Origin: Natrinema caseinilyticum
GTDB taxonomy: Archaea; Halobacteriota; Halobacteria; Halobacteriales; Natrialbaceae
Reading direction: 5' to 3'
Assembly: GCF_024227435.1 (NCBI RefSeq)
Contig: NZ_CP100445.1
Coordinates: 1,054,001 to 1,118,000 of the forward strand
DNA length: 64,000 nt
Shown piece by piece: positions 50,173 to 61,146 of the stretch. Below the pieces are notes generated by a model. That model ran no database searches and was not told where the DNA came from. It worked only from the letters and a program-made list of their open reading frames with translations. Within the stretch, counting starts at the first letter, position 1, and each line of letters opens with the position of its first letter. Position numbers and translations under genes: made by a program.

Positions 50173-50572
50173 ACGACTACTAGGTTTGGCTCGCACATAA
50201 ATCCGACTTCTGACAAGTGGAACGACATTGACGACGCCGTGCATGTCTCTGGGGGGTCGGCAGTCTGCTATTTCACGACGATTCGTTTCGCGCTGTTCTC
50301 TCACAATCGAGTAGTGAGCGACGGTACCTGATTACCGATCTTTGTCGCGGCGAAGACGCGAAATACGTCACCCCTATTCCGACTGAGAAACGGGAAAATC
50401 GACATTCATCGCTGGTTAAGGGAATCTGCAGGCGCACATATGATGAAAGAAGGGGCAGAGAACGTGTGATATTTCCTCGAGTCGGTGATCCGAAACAGCA
50501 GCAAGCCGCATCTGATGGGGGAATAATACGTAGTTGCAAAGATTTATTCCGCTTTGGGGCGATGAAACACTC
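50173..50572. other. Divergent intergenic region
   Basis: About 400 bases between the UspA-like gene and the first DUF7342 gene. It holds the UspA promoter and the operator of the toxin-antitoxin-like module at 50520-50550. No gene is recognised. Confidence 0.4.
50520..50550 (+). promoter_or_regulatory. Inverted repeat overlapping the first DUF7342 promoter
   Basis: GGAATAA at 50520-50526 pairs with TTATTCC at 50544-50550 around a 17-base spacer. The right arm overlaps the TATA-like GATTTATTCC, and the repeat is centred 38 bases before the ATG at 50573. The second DUF7342 gene has a palindrome at the same distance. A self-binding regulator would explain both. Confidence 0.55.
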
Positions 50573-51148
50573 ATGGACGAACCGCAGGACGAGCTCGAGG
50601 CAGATGCAGACGAACCGGGAGAGCCGCCGGATTTCGACGCGTTGACGTCGGCTGAAGAGGTCGTTCGCGGTGAACGGACACGCGACGACTTTTTCGATGC
50701 CGCCCTCGGGTTAGATAGCCCGGCAACGGCGAGTGAAGTTGCCGACCTCGCGGGCCGCGGCGTGGATGCTGCACGGGAGTACCTCGAGTGGTTCGAGCAG
50801 TTGGGGATCGTCACGCTAGTTACCGAATCGCCAGCGACGTACCAGCGCAATCAGGAGTATCTGAACTGGCGTCGCGTCCAGCGACTGAAAGACGAATACA
50901 CGTCAGACGAGCTCCTTGTCCTCCTGAAAAGAGAAACGGAGCGCGAAGAGGGGTTCACCGATCAGTTCGATGTCGGATCTCCCGATGCCGTCTCTATCAC
51001 GGCCCACGCATCTGCATCGGATCGGTCGGTAGAGGAGGTGTGGGAGGACGTTTCCGCGTGGAAAACAGCCCGCCGCCGAATCACACTGCTCGAAAGAGCG
51101 CTGACGACTGAGTCAGGCGATGCTGCGGATCAACGAACTGCCGTATGA
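50573..51148 (+). CDS. DUF7342-family HTH protein (probable antitoxin/regulator) 1
   Basis: A 191-residue acidic winged-helix protein: FDALTSAEEVV, then SPATASEVADLAGRGVDAAREYLEWFEQLGIVTLV (HTH), a long second half of helices with YQRNQEYLNWRRVQRL and the conserved SAWKTARRRITLLERAL. It is paralogous to 54801-55385. The ATG at 50573 is supported by a TATA-like box about 25 bases upstream. Its stop overlaps the TumE-like gene (ATGA), so the two are translationally coupled, as in type II toxin-antitoxin operons. The HTH and upstream inverted repeat suggest autoregulation. Confidence 0.75.
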   Translation: MDEPQDELEADADEPGEPPDFDALTSAEEVVRGERTRDDFFDAALGLDSPATASEVADLAGRGVDAAREYLEWFEQLGIVTLVTESPATYQRNQEYLNWRRVQRLKDEYTSDELLVLLKRETEREEGFTDQFDVGSPDAVSITAHASASDRSVEEVWEDVSAWKTARRRITLLERALTTESGDAADQRTAV

Positions 51149-51579
51149 CTCGCGGAGAAGACGACGGTGTGAGCGGTGCGCCCATCGATTTCGATCGGCT
51201 CGACATCATCAGAGGACGACTCTCTAGAGACGAGCGGTTCGTTCGAATCGACGAGCACTCCGAATTTGCACCGAATCGTCTGGTGTGTGTTTACGACAAC
51301 CGCTTCTATCCGAACAATATTCGAACGGCTCAGTTAGAGATCGTCTGGTTCGAAAACGGCGATTTCACACTGCACTATCACGAAGAGCAAGACACTGAGA
51401 CGTTCGATCACCGGTGGGATCGACACCCGTCGGACCACAATACGCGGGATCACATTCATCCCGGGCCCGATGCGCTCACGCCGGGCGAAGATGCGTCACA
51501 TCCGGCAGACTGGCGTGACGTCCTTTCCATGGCGCTCGTGGAAATCGAAGAACGCCAGCGTGGATTCTGGTCAGCGTGA
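51145..51579 (+). CDS. TumE-family (DUF6516) toxin-like protein
   Basis: A 144-residue protein of the TumE-like family. It carries the family core: APNRLVCVYDNRFYPN, TAQLEIVWFENGDFTLHYHE, then HRWDRHPSDHNTRDHIHPGP and the closing LVEIEERQRGFW. Its conserved His/Arg residues suggest an RNase or other nucleic-acid activity, but the mechanism is not established from sequence. It overlaps the upstream DUF7342 gene by four bases and should be its toxin partner. A second copy of this module at 54.4-55.4 kb has a frameshifted toxin. Confidence 0.75.
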   Translation: MTRGEDDGVSGAPIDFDRLDIIRGRLSRDERFVRIDEHSEFAPNRLVCVYDNRFYPNNIRTAQLEIVWFENGDFTLHYHEEQDTETFDHRWDRHPSDHNTRDHIHPGPDALTPGEDASHPADWRDVLSMALVEIEERQRGFWSA

Positions 51580-54445: not shown

Positions 54446-54804
54446 TTATGACGGATTTGAGAATTGGTTCAGTCGCCCGGAGTTGTCGTTTTCGTATGCC
54501 GTACGCCACCTCGCGTGCACCGTGCGCGTCACGAGTGATACCTCTTCGACGGTGATGCAGGACGGTTCGGCAGCAGTCGTCGCATCAGACGGTGGGTGGA
54601 ACTGTTTCTCCGGCGAGTGGGATTCGGATGCCGATCGAACCGCCAGTTCACGTCGTTGCTGTCGACGTAGTGAAACGAATACGCGTCCAGTTCACTCCAC
54701 TGGACGTCGAACCGGGCAGTATCTGCATCACCAATTCCGTCGGAGAGGTCGATACGGAGTTCAGTCTGAGAGACGACGTCGTCGTAAGACGGTTTCTCAG
54801 TCAC
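54446..54804 (-). pseudogene. Frameshifted TumE-like toxin gene (second module)
   Basis: The frame from the GTG at 54804 reads a TumE-like start (TEKPSYDDVV, WSELDAYSFHYVDSND, VNWRFDRHPNPTR). Near 54617 it slips, and the rest is in another frame (FHPPSDATTAAEPSC, ITVEEVSLVTRTVHARWRT) to a stop at 54446. One missing base restores the frame. The GTG start overlaps the DUF7342 stop (GTGA), the same coupled arrangement as in module 1. With a broken toxin the antitoxin alone may remain active, or the read has an error. Confidence 0.65.
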
Positions 54805-55385
54805 TGGTTCCAACTCGAGCCAGAGGGTGCGAATCCGCTCGAGTGCCGGAAGATAGATTGGCCCGAATTCGCCGGCCCGGTCCGTCCTCGTCGTGCCGCG
54901 AGTTGCTGGCTCGCTTCACCATAGGCCAGTGCAGCCTGTGCGACGGCCAAGTTCAGGCGCGTCGTCTTCCACGTAGAGAGGTCCTCCCACCCCTGGGCAT
55001 CATCGGCATCGAGTTCGCGCGTGAGCTCCTCGGGGGAGAGGACGTCGTATTTGTCTTCGAAACTGCGAATCTCCCGTTTCATTCGTTTGATTCCGTCGAG
55101 GAGGTCCTCACGCGTCGTTTCCCTTCGAAGTTCGCGATCGGAATTTCGTTTGTAGACCGTCGTCCGTCCATTCTGCTTGGTTTCGGCGAACCCCGTCTTC
55201 ACGAGTGTGTTGCAGTGCCGCCGAGCAGTGGGCTCACTGACGAGCGCTCGCTCGGCGATCTCGGCTGCGGACTGACCATCGTGAGTCTGTTCGACGATCT
55301 CATAGACGCGTTCGAACGGAGTCGTCTCTGCTTTCCACTCCGATTTAACGTGCTCGTTGATGTCTGCGTCCGTCTCGTTCGGCAT
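54801..55385 (-). CDS. DUF7342-family HTH protein (probable antitoxin/regulator) 2
   Basis: A 194-residue winged-helix protein, paralogue of 50573-51148. It has FERVYEIVEQTHDGQSAAEIAERALVSEPTARRHCNTLVKTGFAET (HTH; individual motifs QSAAEIAERALV and EPTARRHCN), a KRMKREIRSFEDKYDVLS coiled segment and the conserved STWKTTRLNLAVAQAALAYG. The ATG at 55385 fits the protein family; the frame extends to 55424 across the palindrome and is not used. A 39-bp palindrome sits 37 bases before the ATG. Confidence 0.78.
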   Translation of the reverse strand: MPNETDADINEHVKSEWKAETTPFERVYEIVEQTHDGQSAAEIAERALVSEPTARRHCNTLVKTGFAETKQNGRTTVYKRNSDRELRRETTREDLLDGIKRMKREIRSFEDKYDVLSPEELTRELDADDAQGWEDLSTWKTTRLNLAVAQAALAYGEASQQLAARRGRTGPANSGQSIFRHSSGFAPSGSSWNQ

Positions 55386-55402: not shown

Positions 55403-55441
55403 TGAGGAAAAATAATTTCTTCAAGAAATTATTTTTCCTCA
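55403..55441. promoter_or_regulatory. Perfect 39-bp palindrome operator
   Basis: Two 19-base arms, TGAGGAAAAATAATTTCTT at 55403-55421 and its exact reverse complement at 55423-55441, flank a single central C (55422). On the minus strand the AT-rich part forms the TATA element of the DUF7342 gene about 30 bases before the ATG at 55385. Binding by a dimer would block transcription. It is the strongest autoregulatory site seen in the window. Confidence 0.7.
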
Positions 55442-55601: not shown

Positions 55602-57041
55602 TCACGTTGCCTCCGAGAGCACCGAACTGAGAGTGAGCCGCAACTGATCGCTTAGTACGAGGAGGACGACTCCATACGTGGCTGCGCCCACCGCAACGAG
55701 CGACCCGAGTACGAACCACGAGTCCACCTGCACGTTCATGCGTACGAGCGTGACGACGGCGAACATCGCGGCCCCGGCGAACACCTGTTCGAAGAGGAGC
55801 CGCGGGAACAGCGACACCTCCGGAACTCGGCGGTTCAGCGAGAGCGCACAGAGGACGTATCGCGTAGACTCGGCAAGTACCGTAGCGATGACGACGCCAA
55901 TAGGACCGTATTGAAGCGTTAGTGCGACTCCGACTACGAGGTTGAGCGCCAGTGTGGTTAGATCGATCATCATCCCAAGTTTCGGGAGGTCGAGTCCGTC
56001 GAGTCCCTGTCGGTATGGGTTCGACTGGGTGGCGAGGAGCTGATACAACGCGAGGCCGACTAGCAGAATTGCACCTGGTCGGTACTCCGCGCCAAACGCT
56101 GTGACAATGAGTCCCTCGGAGAGCGCGAGCGCGCCGAAGAACATCGGTACCGCGAGGATGCTGGCGAACGAGACGGTGTTAGTGATATCCGTCGCGACCG
56201 CCTCGCCACGGCTTTCGAGGTTGCTCACCTTGGCCATCAGCCCCGATCCCGCGACGTACGAGACGAACATAGCCGGAACGGTGAGCTTGAACGCTGCTTC
56301 GTAGTAGCCGACTGCAGTAGTCGTCGTAAGCCACCCCAGAACGAGGAGATCAAGTCGTTTGAACGTCTTCCCGATAAATCGGGCGACGATGCTATATCGG
56401 GCGTACTCCCACAGCGATCCGAGCGTCTCCACCGAGGGGACAACCGGCTTAACCCGGAGGAAGTAGTGAATGACCGGAACTGTGAGCAAGGTCGCAGCCG
56501 CCAGCCCATATCCCATCCCGGCCGCGCCAAATCCCGCTGCGACGAATCCGAGCTGGAGGCCGAGTGTCAGCACCGACCGGAGAGTGTCGTTCCACGTTTC
56601 AAGGCCGAGGTAACCGTCAGCTACCAGTAGCTGCTGGAAGGGATGGAAGAACACTAGCGTGGTAAAGAGGATCATGAACAGTGGTCCTGCGGCGTCAAAG
56701 CCGGTGAACCCCCCAAGCCAGTTACCCGCGACCGCGATGCCGACCGTGATGGTGCCGATGGCCAGCAAGTTCGCGAGCAGGAGACTGCCGAGGATTTCAC
56801 CTTTCCGCGCGTCGGCCTCGGAGAACCGCTTTTTGGCCGCGACGCCAATTCCCGCCAGCGGGCGGTCAGTCACCTGAACGAGGGTGAGAAGCAGGTAGAA
56901 TCCGCCGAGATCTGCTGGGCCGAGGACGCGCGCGAAGACGACTGTCCCGACAAATCCCAGTACTGCCTGTACCATCTTCCCGGAGACGCCCTTCAATGTC
57001 TCAAGTCCGAGACTCATACTGCCCGCGCCGTCGTCCGACAT
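55602..57041 (-). CDS. Polysaccharide/oligosaccharide flippase (Wzx-like, MATE-fold)
   Basis: A 479-residue integral membrane protein with about 12-14 hydrophobic segments, matching the polysaccharide-biosynthesis (RfbX/Wzx) family. Landmarks are GVSGKMVQAVLGFVGTVVFARVLGPADLGGFYL near the N-terminus (short motif ARVLGPADLGGFYLL), and YLRVKP-like loops further on. It would flip lipid-linked glycans across the membrane; haloarchaeal AglR is a relative. It is the first gene (lowest coordinate) of a minus-strand glycan cluster that continues to the window's end. Confidence 0.88.
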   Translation of the reverse strand: MSDDGAGSMSLGLETLKGVSGKMVQAVLGFVGTVVFARVLGPADLGGFYLLLTLVQVTDRPLAGIGVAAKKRFSEADARKGEILGSLLLANLLAIGTITVGIAVAGNWLGGFTGFDAAGPLFMILFTTLVFFHPFQQLLVADGYLGLETWNDTLRSVLTLGLQLGFVAAGFGAAGMGYGLAAATLLTVPVIHYFLRVKPVVPSVETLGSLWEYARYSIVARFIGKTFKRLDLLVLGWLTTTTAVGYYEAAFKLTVPAMFVSYVAGSGLMAKVSNLESRGEAVATDITNTVSFASILAVPMFFGALALSEGLIVTAFGAEYRPGAILLVGLALYQLLATQSNPYRQGLDGLDLPKLGMMIDLTTLALNLVVGVALTLQYGPIGVVIATVLAESTRYVLCALSLNRRVPEVSLFPRLLFEQVFAGAAMFAVVTLVRMNVQVDSWFVLGSLVAVGAATYGVVLLVLSDQLRLTLSSVLSEAT

Positions 57042-57295: not shown

Positions 57296-58225
57296 TCAGA
57301 CGTACCCGAGATTTCTAAGCCGTTCGATGACCGCTTCGTCGTTCGTCTCAACCTCGCCCATCTGCGGGTCTGGGTCATAGTCTCCGGCATCGGCGGCCGA
57401 TGTGACGTACCACGGGACGCGGCGTATCGCTGGAATCGGGATGTTCGGAGGGTGGCCCCAGATTCCCCACTCGCCGAGTGCGTTGGCGTGGTCGGCGGTG
57501 AGTACGACGTGGTCAGCGTCGATACTCCTCAGTAGTGTCTCAGTGACCTCGTCAAGCACATACCGCAGGTTATCGAGGTAGGCCGTTTGGGCGGTCGCTT
57601 TGTCCACGTCGCCGTGGCGGATCCGCTCCCAGATACCGCGTTCCTCGCGGTTGGCGAACGTATCTGCGTCGTCGAATCCAGCCGCGAGGTCCGGTTTCGA
57701 GACGAACGGGCCGTGGGGTTGCATATAGTGGACGATCATCCTGTCGGGCGCGACCGTCCGCCAGACCTCGACGGCGTGATCGGTTATTGGCCGGGGGTGG
57801 ATCGTGCCGATCTCGGCATCCCAGCTGTACCGCCACGCCTCCCGAAGCGCGGCGAACTCGTCGTCTTGGACCGTCTCTGACGAGAACGGATTCCCCGTGA
57901 CGTACGCGGTACGGCGCTTCTGGTCGTCGTACTGCGGAGCGAAGTTGCGGTCCATCCACGACTTCGAGTACGAGGCGTTCGAGTAGATCGCCTCCCCGTC
58001 GAGACCGTACTCGACGGCGACGTCTCGCATCATGTCTGCCCGACAGGCGTCGAGTATCACGAGCACGTCCCACTCGCGATCGAAGATGGGGGTTCCGTAC
58101 TCGCACATCCCGTCCATCTGGCGGAGCGCACCGAGGTACAGTTGGTACGCCGACTCTCGGATACCGACAAACCCGTCCTGTTTCACGCGCGTTACCGTGT
58201 CCTGATACCAATCGCTAAGCGTCAT
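57296..58225 (-). CDS. Sulfatase/alkaline-phosphatase-superfamily protein A
   Basis: A 309-residue protein of the alkaline-phosphatase superfamily, haloarchaeal surface-glycan type. It has VLVILDACRADMM (Asp59), the paralogue-shared AYVTGNPFS block, HYMQPHGPF and LTADHANALGEWG, which holds the Asp-His metal ligands. The sulfatase CxPxR formylglycine motif is missing, so classic sulfatase activity is unlikely; phosphotransfer or phosphohydrolysis is possible. The ATG at 58225 overlaps the end of the GT4 gene by 11 bases. It is one of three tandem paralogues. Confidence 0.75.
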   Translation of the reverse strand: MTLSDWYQDTVTRVKQDGFVGIRESAYQLYLGALRQMDGMCEYGTPIFDREWDVLVILDACRADMMRDVAVEYGLDGEAIYSNASYSKSWMDRNFAPQYDDQKRRTAYVTGNPFSSETVQDDEFAALREAWRYSWDAEIGTIHPRPITDHAVEVWRTVAPDRMIVHYMQPHGPFVSKPDLAAGFDDADTFANREERGIWERIRHGDVDKATAQTAYLDNLRYVLDEVTETLLRSIDADHVVLTADHANALGEWGIWGHPPNIPIPAIRRVPWYVTSAADAGDYDPDPQMGEVETNDEAVIERLRNLGYV

Positions 58226-59240
58226 ACATCGCTTCCATCTCGGCTGCAACAGCAGTAAACGAGTTTTCGTTCCTGTACTCGGTCATCCGCTCGGCGAGTC
58301 GCCGTCGTCGCTCATCGTCTTCGAGAATTGCCCGAACCGTCTCCTCGAGGCCGTCGGCGTCGGTGAGTGCGACGCAACCGTACTCGTTCGCCAACCGCTC
58401 GAAGTACGGAATTCGCGTGCCGACCACAGGGAGCTGGTAGGTCGCACACCGATTAAACGTCCCGCTCTGATTGATGTCGCGGTACGGGAGTACTGCGAGA
58501 TCGCTGGCGGCAAACGATGCTTCGAACTTTTTGTCGCCAAGGACGCCCGTTATCCGGAGGTTAGCTGGCGCGCGTTCGTGGAGGCGATCTTCGAGGTTCT
58601 CGCGTCGACTCCCACCTGCGAGGAGGAACTCGTAGTCAGGCATGGCTTCGGCGAGATCGACGAACCGATCACACCCCTTCCGGTGGGCGAGGAATCCGTG
58701 GTGGGTTATTACGGTGTCGTCGGGGTCGTAGCCGAACGACTCCTTGGCGGCTTCCGGGGAGAGGTCCCTGCGCTCCGTCCTGACGCCGTGAGGCATGATT
58801 CGCGTGTCGGCCCTTGTGACGCTAGCGAGAAAGTCACGCTCGGCATTGGCCGAGAGGAACAACAGCTGGTCGGTACATCGGACCAGCGTTTCGTGGACGA
58901 GTCGGAGGTACGCATACTTGAGTCGGCTTTCGTCCGCGTCCGTGCGCTGCCAGACCTCGTGGACGGTCACGATTGTTGGACCGCGAGTGAACGCAAAGAC
59001 CAGCGGCAGGAAGAACAGCGTGAACGCGCCCTTCGGTCCGAACATCCCGTATACGTACTGGACGTGCGCCGCCGACGCGTGCCTCGCTCCGATGGCCGCC
59101 CGGAGGTAGCGAAGCGGGTTCAACCACTCCCGATTGACCGGTATCCTACGCACGTCCGCGTCGACGTGAGCGAGGAAATCGTCGGTGTACGCGCCGACAC
59201 CGCCGTGTGACCTCGGCGGGGCGAAGATGTGTACTGTCAT
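58215..59240 (-). CDS. Glycosyltransferase family 4 protein A
   Basis: A 341-residue GT-B fold glycosyltransferase. It begins TVHIFAPPRSHGGVGAYTDDFL with the glycine-rich N-lobe, then the linker HGFLAHRKGCDRFVDLAEAMPD, and the sugar-nucleotide site region (FAASDLAVLPYRDINQSGT). It would transfer a sugar from a nucleotide donor in the cytoplasm. The ATG at 59240 overlaps the stop of the neighbouring sulfatase-like gene, and its end overlaps the next start, so the genes are tightly coupled. Confidence 0.85.
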   Translation of the reverse strand: MTVHIFAPPRSHGGVGAYTDDFLAHVDADVRRIPVNREWLNPLRYLRAAIGARHASAAHVQYVYGMFGPKGAFTLFFLPLVFAFTRGPTIVTVHEVWQRTDADESRLKYAYLRLVHETLVRCTDQLLFLSANAERDFLASVTRADTRIMPHGVRTERRDLSPEAAKESFGYDPDDTVITHHGFLAHRKGCDRFVDLAEAMPDYEFLLAGGSRRENLEDRLHERAPANLRITGVLGDKKFEASFAASDLAVLPYRDINQSGTFNRCATYQLPVVGTRIPYFERLANEYGCVALTDADGLEETVRAILEDDERRRRLAERMTEYRNENSFTAVAAEMEAMYDA

Positions 59241-60163
59241 CACAGGTACCCGAGTTCTGCGAGGCGTTTCTGAACGCTTTCGTCGTCGGCGTTGGTCGGT
59301 TCGCTCTCGTCGAACGTGGGGGTGACCGACCCGGTATCGGTCGCGCTCGTCCGACACCACGGCACGCGTCGGAGTGCGGGCGCGAGGACCCCGTTCTCGT
59401 GGCCGTAGAGGAACCACTCGCCGAATAGGTTCCCATGATCCGAGGTAATCACGACCTCGGGGGCGTCCACGTTTTCGAGCAGTCGCTCCACGTCGTCAAG
59501 GACGTATCGGAGGTTCTCCCGGTAGGCGTCCCACGCGGCGTCTGGACCCACCTCACCCTCCCGAATCCGCTGCCAGACGTTCTTGCCCGGCTCGCCGGGG
59601 TTGTTTTTGCTTGGCCCTCCATCGAGCGGGTCAGCGACGAATGGGTGGTGGGGTTGCATGTAGTGAACGACCATCCGTTCGGGGTCGCGCTCGCGGTGGT
59701 GGTGAATGGCCCGATCCGTCAGCGTATTCGGCCGTATTGTCCCCGCCTCGTAGTCCCAGTCACGCTCCCACACCTCGTCGAGGAGAGCGAACTCGGCTCC
59801 GCTGAGGAGATTGTCCGAGAAGGGGTTACCGGTCACGTACGCCGTCCGGGCTACCTCGTCTCGGTAGCCGTCACCGAATGTCTTCCGAATCCACTCGCGG
59901 GAGGCACCGCCAACGGAGTAGCTGGACTCGACGCTCAGCCAGTCGTACTCATCCTCGACTTCGGTGGCGAGGTCGTACCGGCAGGCGTCGAGAACCACCA
60001 GCAGGTCCCACTCCTCGTCGTAGACGTGCTGGCCGTAGTCGTATACCCACTCGGTCCGCTTCCACGCGCCGAGGTACAATTGGTAGGCCGACTCCCCGAG
60101 GCCATCCCACCCTCGCTCGCGAACGTCGTCCGTGGACTCGCGCAGCCAATCTCGCAGCGACAT
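59240..60163 (-). CDS. Sulfatase/alkaline-phosphatase-superfamily protein B
   Basis: A 307-residue paralogue of proteins A and C: LLVVLDACRYDLA, AYVTGNPFSDN, MVVHYMQPHHPF and VVITSDHGNLFGEW. Both active-site metal segments are kept, yet no CxPxR is present. It follows GT4 protein A in the same operon with overlapping stop and start. Activity is not fixed by sequence; the gene may modify sulfo- or phosphosugars. Confidence 0.75.
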   Translation of the reverse strand: MSLRDWLRESTDDVRERGWDGLGESAYQLYLGAWKRTEWVYDYGQHVYDEEWDLLVVLDACRYDLATEVEDEYDWLSVESSYSVGGASREWIRKTFGDGYRDEVARTAYVTGNPFSDNLLSGAEFALLDEVWERDWDYEAGTIRPNTLTDRAIHHHRERDPERMVVHYMQPHHPFVADPLDGGPSKNNPGEPGKNVWQRIREGEVGPDAAWDAYRENLRYVLDDVERLLENVDAPEVVITSDHGNLFGEWFLYGHENGVLAPALRRVPWCRTSATDTGSVTPTFDESEPTNADDESVQKRLAELGYL

Positions 60164-61071
60164 TATAGGTAACCGAGGTCTCTAAGTTTGTCACTCACTG
60201 CGACCTTGTCTCGCTCGGGGACGATATCCGGGTCGTGTTCACCGGTGTCGGTCGCAGTCGTCACACACCATGGCACGTCCCGAACCGCCGAGAGAGGGAT
60301 GTCGCCGTGGCCCCACATCCCCCACTCGCCGAAGGCGTTGCCATGGTCGGCGGTGATGATGGCGCGGTCGGCGTCCACGTTCGCCAGCAGAAGTTCCACA
60401 TCGTCGAGTACGTACTGGAGGTTCTCCCGATAGGCGTCCCACGCGGCCTGGGGGTCAATCTCACCGTCGCGCAACTTGTCCCAGACGGGGCGGTCGGGAT
60501 TCTTGAGGTCGTGGCGGTTCATTCCAGAATCGAGTGGGGTTGGAACGAATGGGTGATGAGGCTGCATGTAGTGGGCGATGAGACTGTCGTGATCGTACTT
60601 GCGAGCCTGTTGGACGGTCACGTCGGTCACCGCCCTCGCGGGCACCGTGTTTAGCTCCTCGTCCCACGCATACTTCCAGACCTCCTCCATATTGCGGAAT
60701 GGCTGGTGGGACAGCATTTCGTCGGAGAACGGGTTTCCGGTTACGTACACCGTGTTTCGAATCTTGGAGTGAGGGTTCTCCACGAAGTTGCGCTTCATCC
60801 AGCGCTTCGATCCCCCGGCTAGCGAGGTCGTGCGTTCGGTATCCACGAAATCGTACTCGCCCGCAACCTCGGCCATAAGGTCAGCGCGGCAGGCGTCAAG
60901 AACCACCAACAGGTCCCAATCGCGTTCGTATATCGGGACTCCGAAGTTGTGAAATCTATCGACGCGGCGGAGGGCACCAACGTAGAGTTCATGCACCGAA
61001 CGTTTAACGCCGTCTCCTCCGTTTTCACTAATACGGCGTTTCGTGTCCGACATCCATTCGGCAAAGGTCAT
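60163..61071 (-). CDS. Sulfatase/alkaline-phosphatase-superfamily protein C
   Basis: A 302-residue third paralogue: LLVVLDACRADLM, VYVTGNPFSDE, HYMQPHHPFVPT and ITADHGNAFGEWGMWGHGD. The ATG at 61071 starts the conserved domain; the open extension to 61125 reads through a TA-repeat tract (61098-61112) without sense. It is closer to protein A in the LDACRAD and DHGN regions. It precedes the longer sulfatase family gene in the same direction. Confidence 0.75.
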   Translation of the reverse strand: MTFAEWMSDTKRRISENGGDGVKRSVHELYVGALRRVDRFHNFGVPIYERDWDLLVVLDACRADLMAEVAGEYDFVDTERTTSLAGGSKRWMKRNFVENPHSKIRNTVYVTGNPFSDEMLSHQPFRNMEEVWKYAWDEELNTVPARAVTDVTVQQARKYDHDSLIAHYMQPHHPFVPTPLDSGMNRHDLKNPDRPVWDKLRDGEIDPQAAWDAYRENLQYVLDDVELLLANVDADRAIITADHGNAFGEWGMWGHGDIPLSAVRDVPWCVTTATDTGEHDPDIVPERDKVAVSDKLRDLGYL

Positions 61072-61146
61072 CGTTGCGCTGGGTTTCGTAATGACTGATA
61101 TATATATATATATTTGCTCCCCCATGACCGTAGTCGTTCGGGACGA

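Follow-up and report, generated by a model that had tools for sequence, protein, structure and literature searches.

A palindrome over the promoter of a haloarchaeal DUF7342 gene: probable operator of an autoregulated toxin-antitoxin-like operon

TumE is a demonstrated translation-inhibiting toxin known to be paired with diverse, unrelated antitoxins (PMC10584680). In the TumE-TumA superfamily (PF20126, formerly DUF6516) the two genes are bicistronic, with an antitoxin-like DNA-binding protein encoded upstream and the toxin downstream; the passages of PMC10584680 consulted describe no operator for the pair. The locus analyzed here has the same arrangement, and the TumE motif YSYHW...RWDNAPHH...HxH is matched in its downstream partner by YSFHY...RFDRHPNTH...HFH. 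It differs in three respects: the partner, a putative toxin, falls below the Pfam cut-off for TumE, DUF7342 and not a tested TumA is encoded upstream, and the pair is archaeal. The bacterial type II toxin-antitoxin (TA) systems RelBE, MazEF, and HigBA are autorepressed; like the present locus, they have a palindromic operator over their own promoter, and a DNA-binding antitoxin-like gene precedes a toxin-like gene. In the present locus the promoter is archaeal, one operator half-site coincides with BRE/TATA, and the DNA-binding protein is a winged-helix DUF7342 protein, not one with an RHH, AbrB, or Xre domain. The winged-helix dimer repressors MecI/BlaI, MarR, and IclR/TtgV share with it a palindromic operator and the predicted fold (VIA-align Z 7-8.6 over DUF7342 residues about 18-97); sequence similarity to them is weak (Penicillinase_R E 0.021), and the C-terminal half of DUF7342 is unmatched. 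No mention of DUF7342 was found in the literature searched. In this study, we describe a palindrome upstream of a DUF7342 gene, which in our view very likely serves as operator for a two-gene TA-like operon under negative autoregulation.

DUF7342 relatives were searched for in 392 genomes of the archaeal order and were found in 205 of them (about half) at E<=1e-15; about 80 were close (59-77% identity), and many more were distant. Upstream regions were compared in 78 close matches, the window included, at 59-77% identity. A divergent set of 22 sequences, whose flanks were <55% identical to one another, was used for information content, and more distant clades were compared at about 39-52% identity. 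A fixed-width palindrome score alone recovered the element in some orthologues only, since several sites differ at two or three positions; an anchored alignment was required. The motif RATANTTTYCTSAGRAAAYTATTTG was sought in the 392 genomes at <=2 mismatches, with the reversed pattern as control.

The window, i.e. the whole 64-kb stretch of DNA analyzed, carries two DUF7342 genes, and the sequence-only reading had correctly assigned the palindrome to the second. The features are as follows.

50534-51148, plus strand: first DUF7342 gene of the window, a paralogue (profile); no comparable operator found upstream
51145-51579, plus strand: partner of the first DUF7342 gene, with an ATGA overlap and an RWDRHP...HIH motif as in TumE-like partners (sequence)
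54446-54894, minus strand: remnant of the TumE-like partner, without ATG and with a frameshift near 54622 after RFDRHPN (orthologue comparison; TumE similarity)
54801-55385, minus strand: DUF7342 gene, winged-helix and antitoxin/repressor-like, without seven residues of the orthologues and running about 23 residues past the usual end (profile, orthologue alignment, model)
54891-54894, minus strand: junction ACGA, which is ATGA in orthologues; the DUF7342 stop and the partner start codon are lost together (orthologue comparison)
55403-55441, no strand: perfect 39-bp palindrome, the proposed DUF7342 operator (sequence; simulation; single in the genome)
55405-55410, plus strand: outer half-site AGGAAA, one of four AGRAAA-like half-sites (sequence; moderate conservation in orthologues)
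55409-55415, minus strand: TATA-like box, reading TTATTTT in the gene's orientation and about 27-28 nt before the ATG (sequence; conserved distance; consensus in PMC4983044)
55411-55433, no strand: 23-bp core AATAATTTCTTCAAGAAATTATT, the orthologue-conserved part (AATArTTTyCTcAGrAAAyTATT) (orthologue comparison)
55416-55421, minus strand: inner half-site, reading AAGAAA in the gene's orientation and doubling as the BRE-like promoter element of the DUF7342 gene (sequence; haloarchaeal BRE consensus, PMC4983044)
55423-55428, plus strand: inner half-site AAGAAA, mirror copy (sequence; arm also conserved in 22 divergent orthologues)
55434-55439, minus strand: outer half-site AGGAAA (sequence)

The palindrome reads TGAGGAAAAATAATTTCTT-C-AAGAAATTATTTTTCCTCA; its 19-base arms mirror each other exactly and flank a single central base (19+1+19). 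It spans -18 to -56 relative to the start codon of the DUF7342 gene (minus strand, ATG at 55385). No other perfect palindrome in the window comes near it in length. In 40 simulated 64-kb sequences (first-order Markov, with the window's dinucleotide usage), arms never exceeded 11 bases, and even if local A+T is taken as 85%, chance would give only about 5e-4 such palindromes per 64 kb. Both the perfect symmetry and its rarity, as claimed in the earlier reading, were thus confirmed. A pattern search allowing <=3 mismatches found one copy of the palindrome in the 4.77 Mb genome; at the same tolerance the 23-bp core is also single-copy.

The surroundings were inspected by eye. In the window, a flippase-like gene (55602-57041) adjoins a gene group at 57296-61125 on the minus strand, which includes one glycosyltransferase-like gene and three related genes whose products carry an MQPHxPF motif and look sulfatase-like. 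In L017 and L024, the co-directional ORF ahead of the DUF7342 gene resembles a C-terminal (cyclin-repeat) fragment of TFB, and flanks similar to those of these two loci were seen in many orthologues.

The sequence-only reading was to fall if orthologues lacked comparable repeats upstream. The same element was found at the same place in 77 of the 78 close matches, each with at least 18 of 31 identities to the seed in the anchored alignment; the shuffled null had a mean of 13.8, and 0.3% of it reached 18. The distance from the element centre to the A of the ATG is 38 nt in 69 matches and 37 nt in 5; it is 37 nt in the window. The orthologue consensus is AATArTTTyCTcAGrAAAyTATTTGTTyCT. What orthologues conserve is an imperfect core of 21-23 bp with loose outer half-sites; the core of L060 is a perfect 23-bp palindrome. 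Exact 39-bp symmetry occurs in the window copy only, among the matches compared, and the weight first given to it is not supported. In the 22 divergent sequences, both arms mostly carry 0.9-1.9 bits/position and the farther upstream flank about 0; within the element the values dip at its midpoint and at positions 7 and -7. Their outer flanks are moderately conserved (purines GRGAAA at -18 to -13, TTyCT at +14 to +18), which suggests further half-sites on the outside, akin to the inner AGRAAA. In the window copy, the outer half-sites are exact mirror images of each other.

The haloarchaeal promoter consensus comprises a CGAAA BRE and a TTWT TATA box (PMC4983044). The gene-proximal arm (AAGAAATTATTTTT in the window; AGrAAAyTATTTG among orthologues) fits this consensus and contains both the BRE-like AAGAAA and the TATA-like TTATTT. 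This style of promoter, together with the relatives of the genome, points to a haloarchaeal host. The palindrome therefore covers the BRE/TATA-like core promoter, in agreement with its earlier placement over the probable TATA box. The short distance from this box to the ATG suggests that the DUF7342 transcript is leaderless.

The motif search returned 59 distinct sites, 56 of which lie directly upstream (<=250 nt) of a DUF7342 orthologue; the reversed control pattern gave zero sites in the 392 genomes. Such a distribution, one motif per gene and next to none elsewhere, marks a private autoregulatory operator and not a regulon. The site is thus conserved, palindromic, placed over the operon's own promoter, and specific to that operon, as is characteristic of an autoregulated operon. 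The operator function put forward by the sequence-only reading thus has strong comparative support and is the explanation we prefer. The remaining three sites (L139, L165, and L207) have no close DUF7342 gene downstream. At L165 (G132:C1:2435645), an orphan operator-like site with a distant DUF7342 gene nearby, the orthologue-type upstream flank is retained; the site may be a remnant left by loss of the gene pair.

Since each arm (AGRAAAyTATTT) resembles a BRE plus a TATA box, both arms could be kept as promoters, and the palindrome could be a symmetric bidirectional core promoter whose two outward BRE-TATA elements are read by TFB/TBP with no dedicated repressor. We regard this as unlikely, for there is no divergent gene in the window, where the gene upstream (55602-57041) is co-directional, and upstream neighbours vary among the orthologues inspected. 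The spacing of the arms is also fixed and the motif is gene-specific, whereas ordinary promoters would be everywhere.

The gene product was assigned to DUF7342 (PF24033) with E 3.6e-31 and 108.6 bits, against a Pfam curated cut-off of 31.6. A winged-helix fold is predicted by many HTH matches and by an AlphaFold model made for the L060 orthologue (pLDDT 77). In this model, the winged helix occupies residues 23-78 (helices 23-34, 40-47, and 51-63; strands 67-69 and 75-78), followed by long helices up to residue 170. The nearest solved structures are the winged-helix regulators IclR, MarR, ArsR, MecI, and TtgV, with Z 7-8.6. A Foldseek search of the PDB with the DUF7342 model gave nothing at E<=0.001 and many weak winged-helix matches; the DUF7342 sequence had two weak ArsR-type matches in the PDB. 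PADLOC yielded weak HTH matches only for DUF7342 and none for the TumE-like partner. The window's own genome has nine DUF7342 matches above the Pfam cut-off (L039-L047). Behind most of them comes a small ORF whose motifs are related, and a stop codon interrupts L045.

The half-site pair was not significant upstream of any of seven own-genome paralogues (the first DUF7342 gene of the window and six others). Among the more distant clades, inverted GAAAnnTAT half-sites were found in A, C, and D, with combined shuffle p values of 1.7e-7, 1.9e-6, and 5.7e-5, which overstate the evidence because the sequences are related. Clade B had no inverted half-sites upstream (p 0.36). The operator is thus not general to DUF7342, being absent from the window's first gene, the six other paralogues, and clade B. 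The recognition helix starts with SEP(T/S)(A/T)R in clades g1, A, C, D, and E and with S(P/S)TTAR in clade B; the first DUF7342 protein of the window has neither. In g1, A, C, and D, the SEP(T/S)(A/T)R helix occurs together with the inverted half-sites. This clade-wise match, which offers few independent contrasts, is consistent with DUF7342 as the binder. By eye, upstream regions of clade B (L106, L110, L113, L116-L121, L124, L127, and L128) have AATATACT...CCCACAGATTATTATACT in common, apparently a direct repeat with a period of about 20 bp rather than a palindrome, and possibly a different type of operator.

DUF7342 binding is a prediction and the genome encodes many winged-helix proteins, so the protein that binds could be a different winged-helix regulator, and the site could be the operator of a regulator unrelated to DUF7342. 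We judge an unrelated regulator to be very unlikely: one site per gene, with hardly any elsewhere in the 392 genomes, fits a private autoregulator, and the operator type tracks the DUF7342 recognition helix across clades.

An RNA element, either a hairpin in the 5'-UTR or the upstream gene's terminator, was considered as well, as the window palindrome folds at -20.2 kcal/mol (z -7) and a T run is present. In the 22 divergent sequences, however, mirrored columns show no clear excess complementarity over the column base composition, and pairing is usually missing at positions 3 and 7. The site of L021 folds no better than its own shuffles; the more symmetric site of L024 does fold better than its own. 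Moreover, the leaderless start expected here is downstream of the palindrome. The bases themselves are conserved, with no compensatory changes, which argues for a protein operator over an RNA hairpin. The RNA reading was rejected as highly improbable, since pairing is not conserved across orthologues. A non-regulatory origin, as the end of a mobile element or a solo insertion scar, brought to mind by the perfect inverted repeats that transposon ends can have and by the three motif copies away from any orthologue, was rejected with practically no residual likelihood on account of the single genomic copy and the nearly fixed distance to the ATG in 77 orthologues.

The operator reading is accompanied by a conserved gene pair. 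In nearly all orthologues, the DUF7342 gene (mostly 170-173 residues) ends in an ATGA that overlaps the start of a partner gene of about 150 residues; the operon is bicistronic with the antitoxin-like gene first, as in type II TA systems. TumE (PF20126) matched weakly in 25 of the 25 partner proteins scanned (best E 0.002), and the curated Pfam cut-off was not reached (15.4 bits for the L060 partner vs 23.4). When partners were compared with 17 archaeal TumE proteins by hhalign, probabilities over the conserved motif region were 80% (A2) and 91% (A4); a control DUF7342 profile gave 0.2%. By these comparisons the partner is a distant TumE relative, below the Pfam cut-off. Its AlphaFold model is poor (pLDDT 41.6; the TumE fold is two helices on a seven-stranded sheet), and its sequence had no match in the PDB.

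As to mechanism, DUF7342, with its winged helix and long C-terminal helical region, would bind, probably as a dimer, to two inverted half-sites of the AGRAAAyTATTT type. Because one half-site is the BRE/TATA core promoter, the bound protein would exclude TFB/TBP and silence the promoter. The DUF7342 gene and the overlapping downstream TumE-like gene would then be shut off together. The outer AGGAAA half-sites of the window copy could seat two dimers side by side. We infer the binding, the repression, the dimer or tetramer state, and the toxicity of the partner.

The window copy differs from its orthologues. Its operator and winged helix are intact, and the seven residues lost from DUF7342 lie just after the wing. 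The partner resembles a pseudogene: its start has changed from ATG to ACG, it is frameshifted, and the conserved HFH motif is QFH. As the partner gene is broken, the locus is probably no longer a working pair; the proposal of a toxin-antitoxin-like pair is supported for the orthologues, with their ATGA-overlapping TumE-like partners, and not supported for the window copy itself. The pair is probably decaying, with the repressor and operator outliving the toxin-like gene. Repression by the window's own DUF7342 protein may be altered, given the loss of a working partner and of the seven residues after the wing.

More tentatively, with slightly less than even confidence, DUF7342 and TumE-like partners may form an undescribed, widespread haloarchaeal TA family. 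Its operators would mirror the core promoter, a half-site being the BRE/TATA element, so that the repressor would read the same DNA as TFB/TBP, and the operator type would diverge with the recognition helix between clades. For a domain of unknown function, the present comparison gives DUF7342 a concrete candidate DNA target and a likely role. It would also extend TumE-type systems to another antitoxin-like family and provide a clean archaeal case of putative repression by occupation of BRE/TATA.
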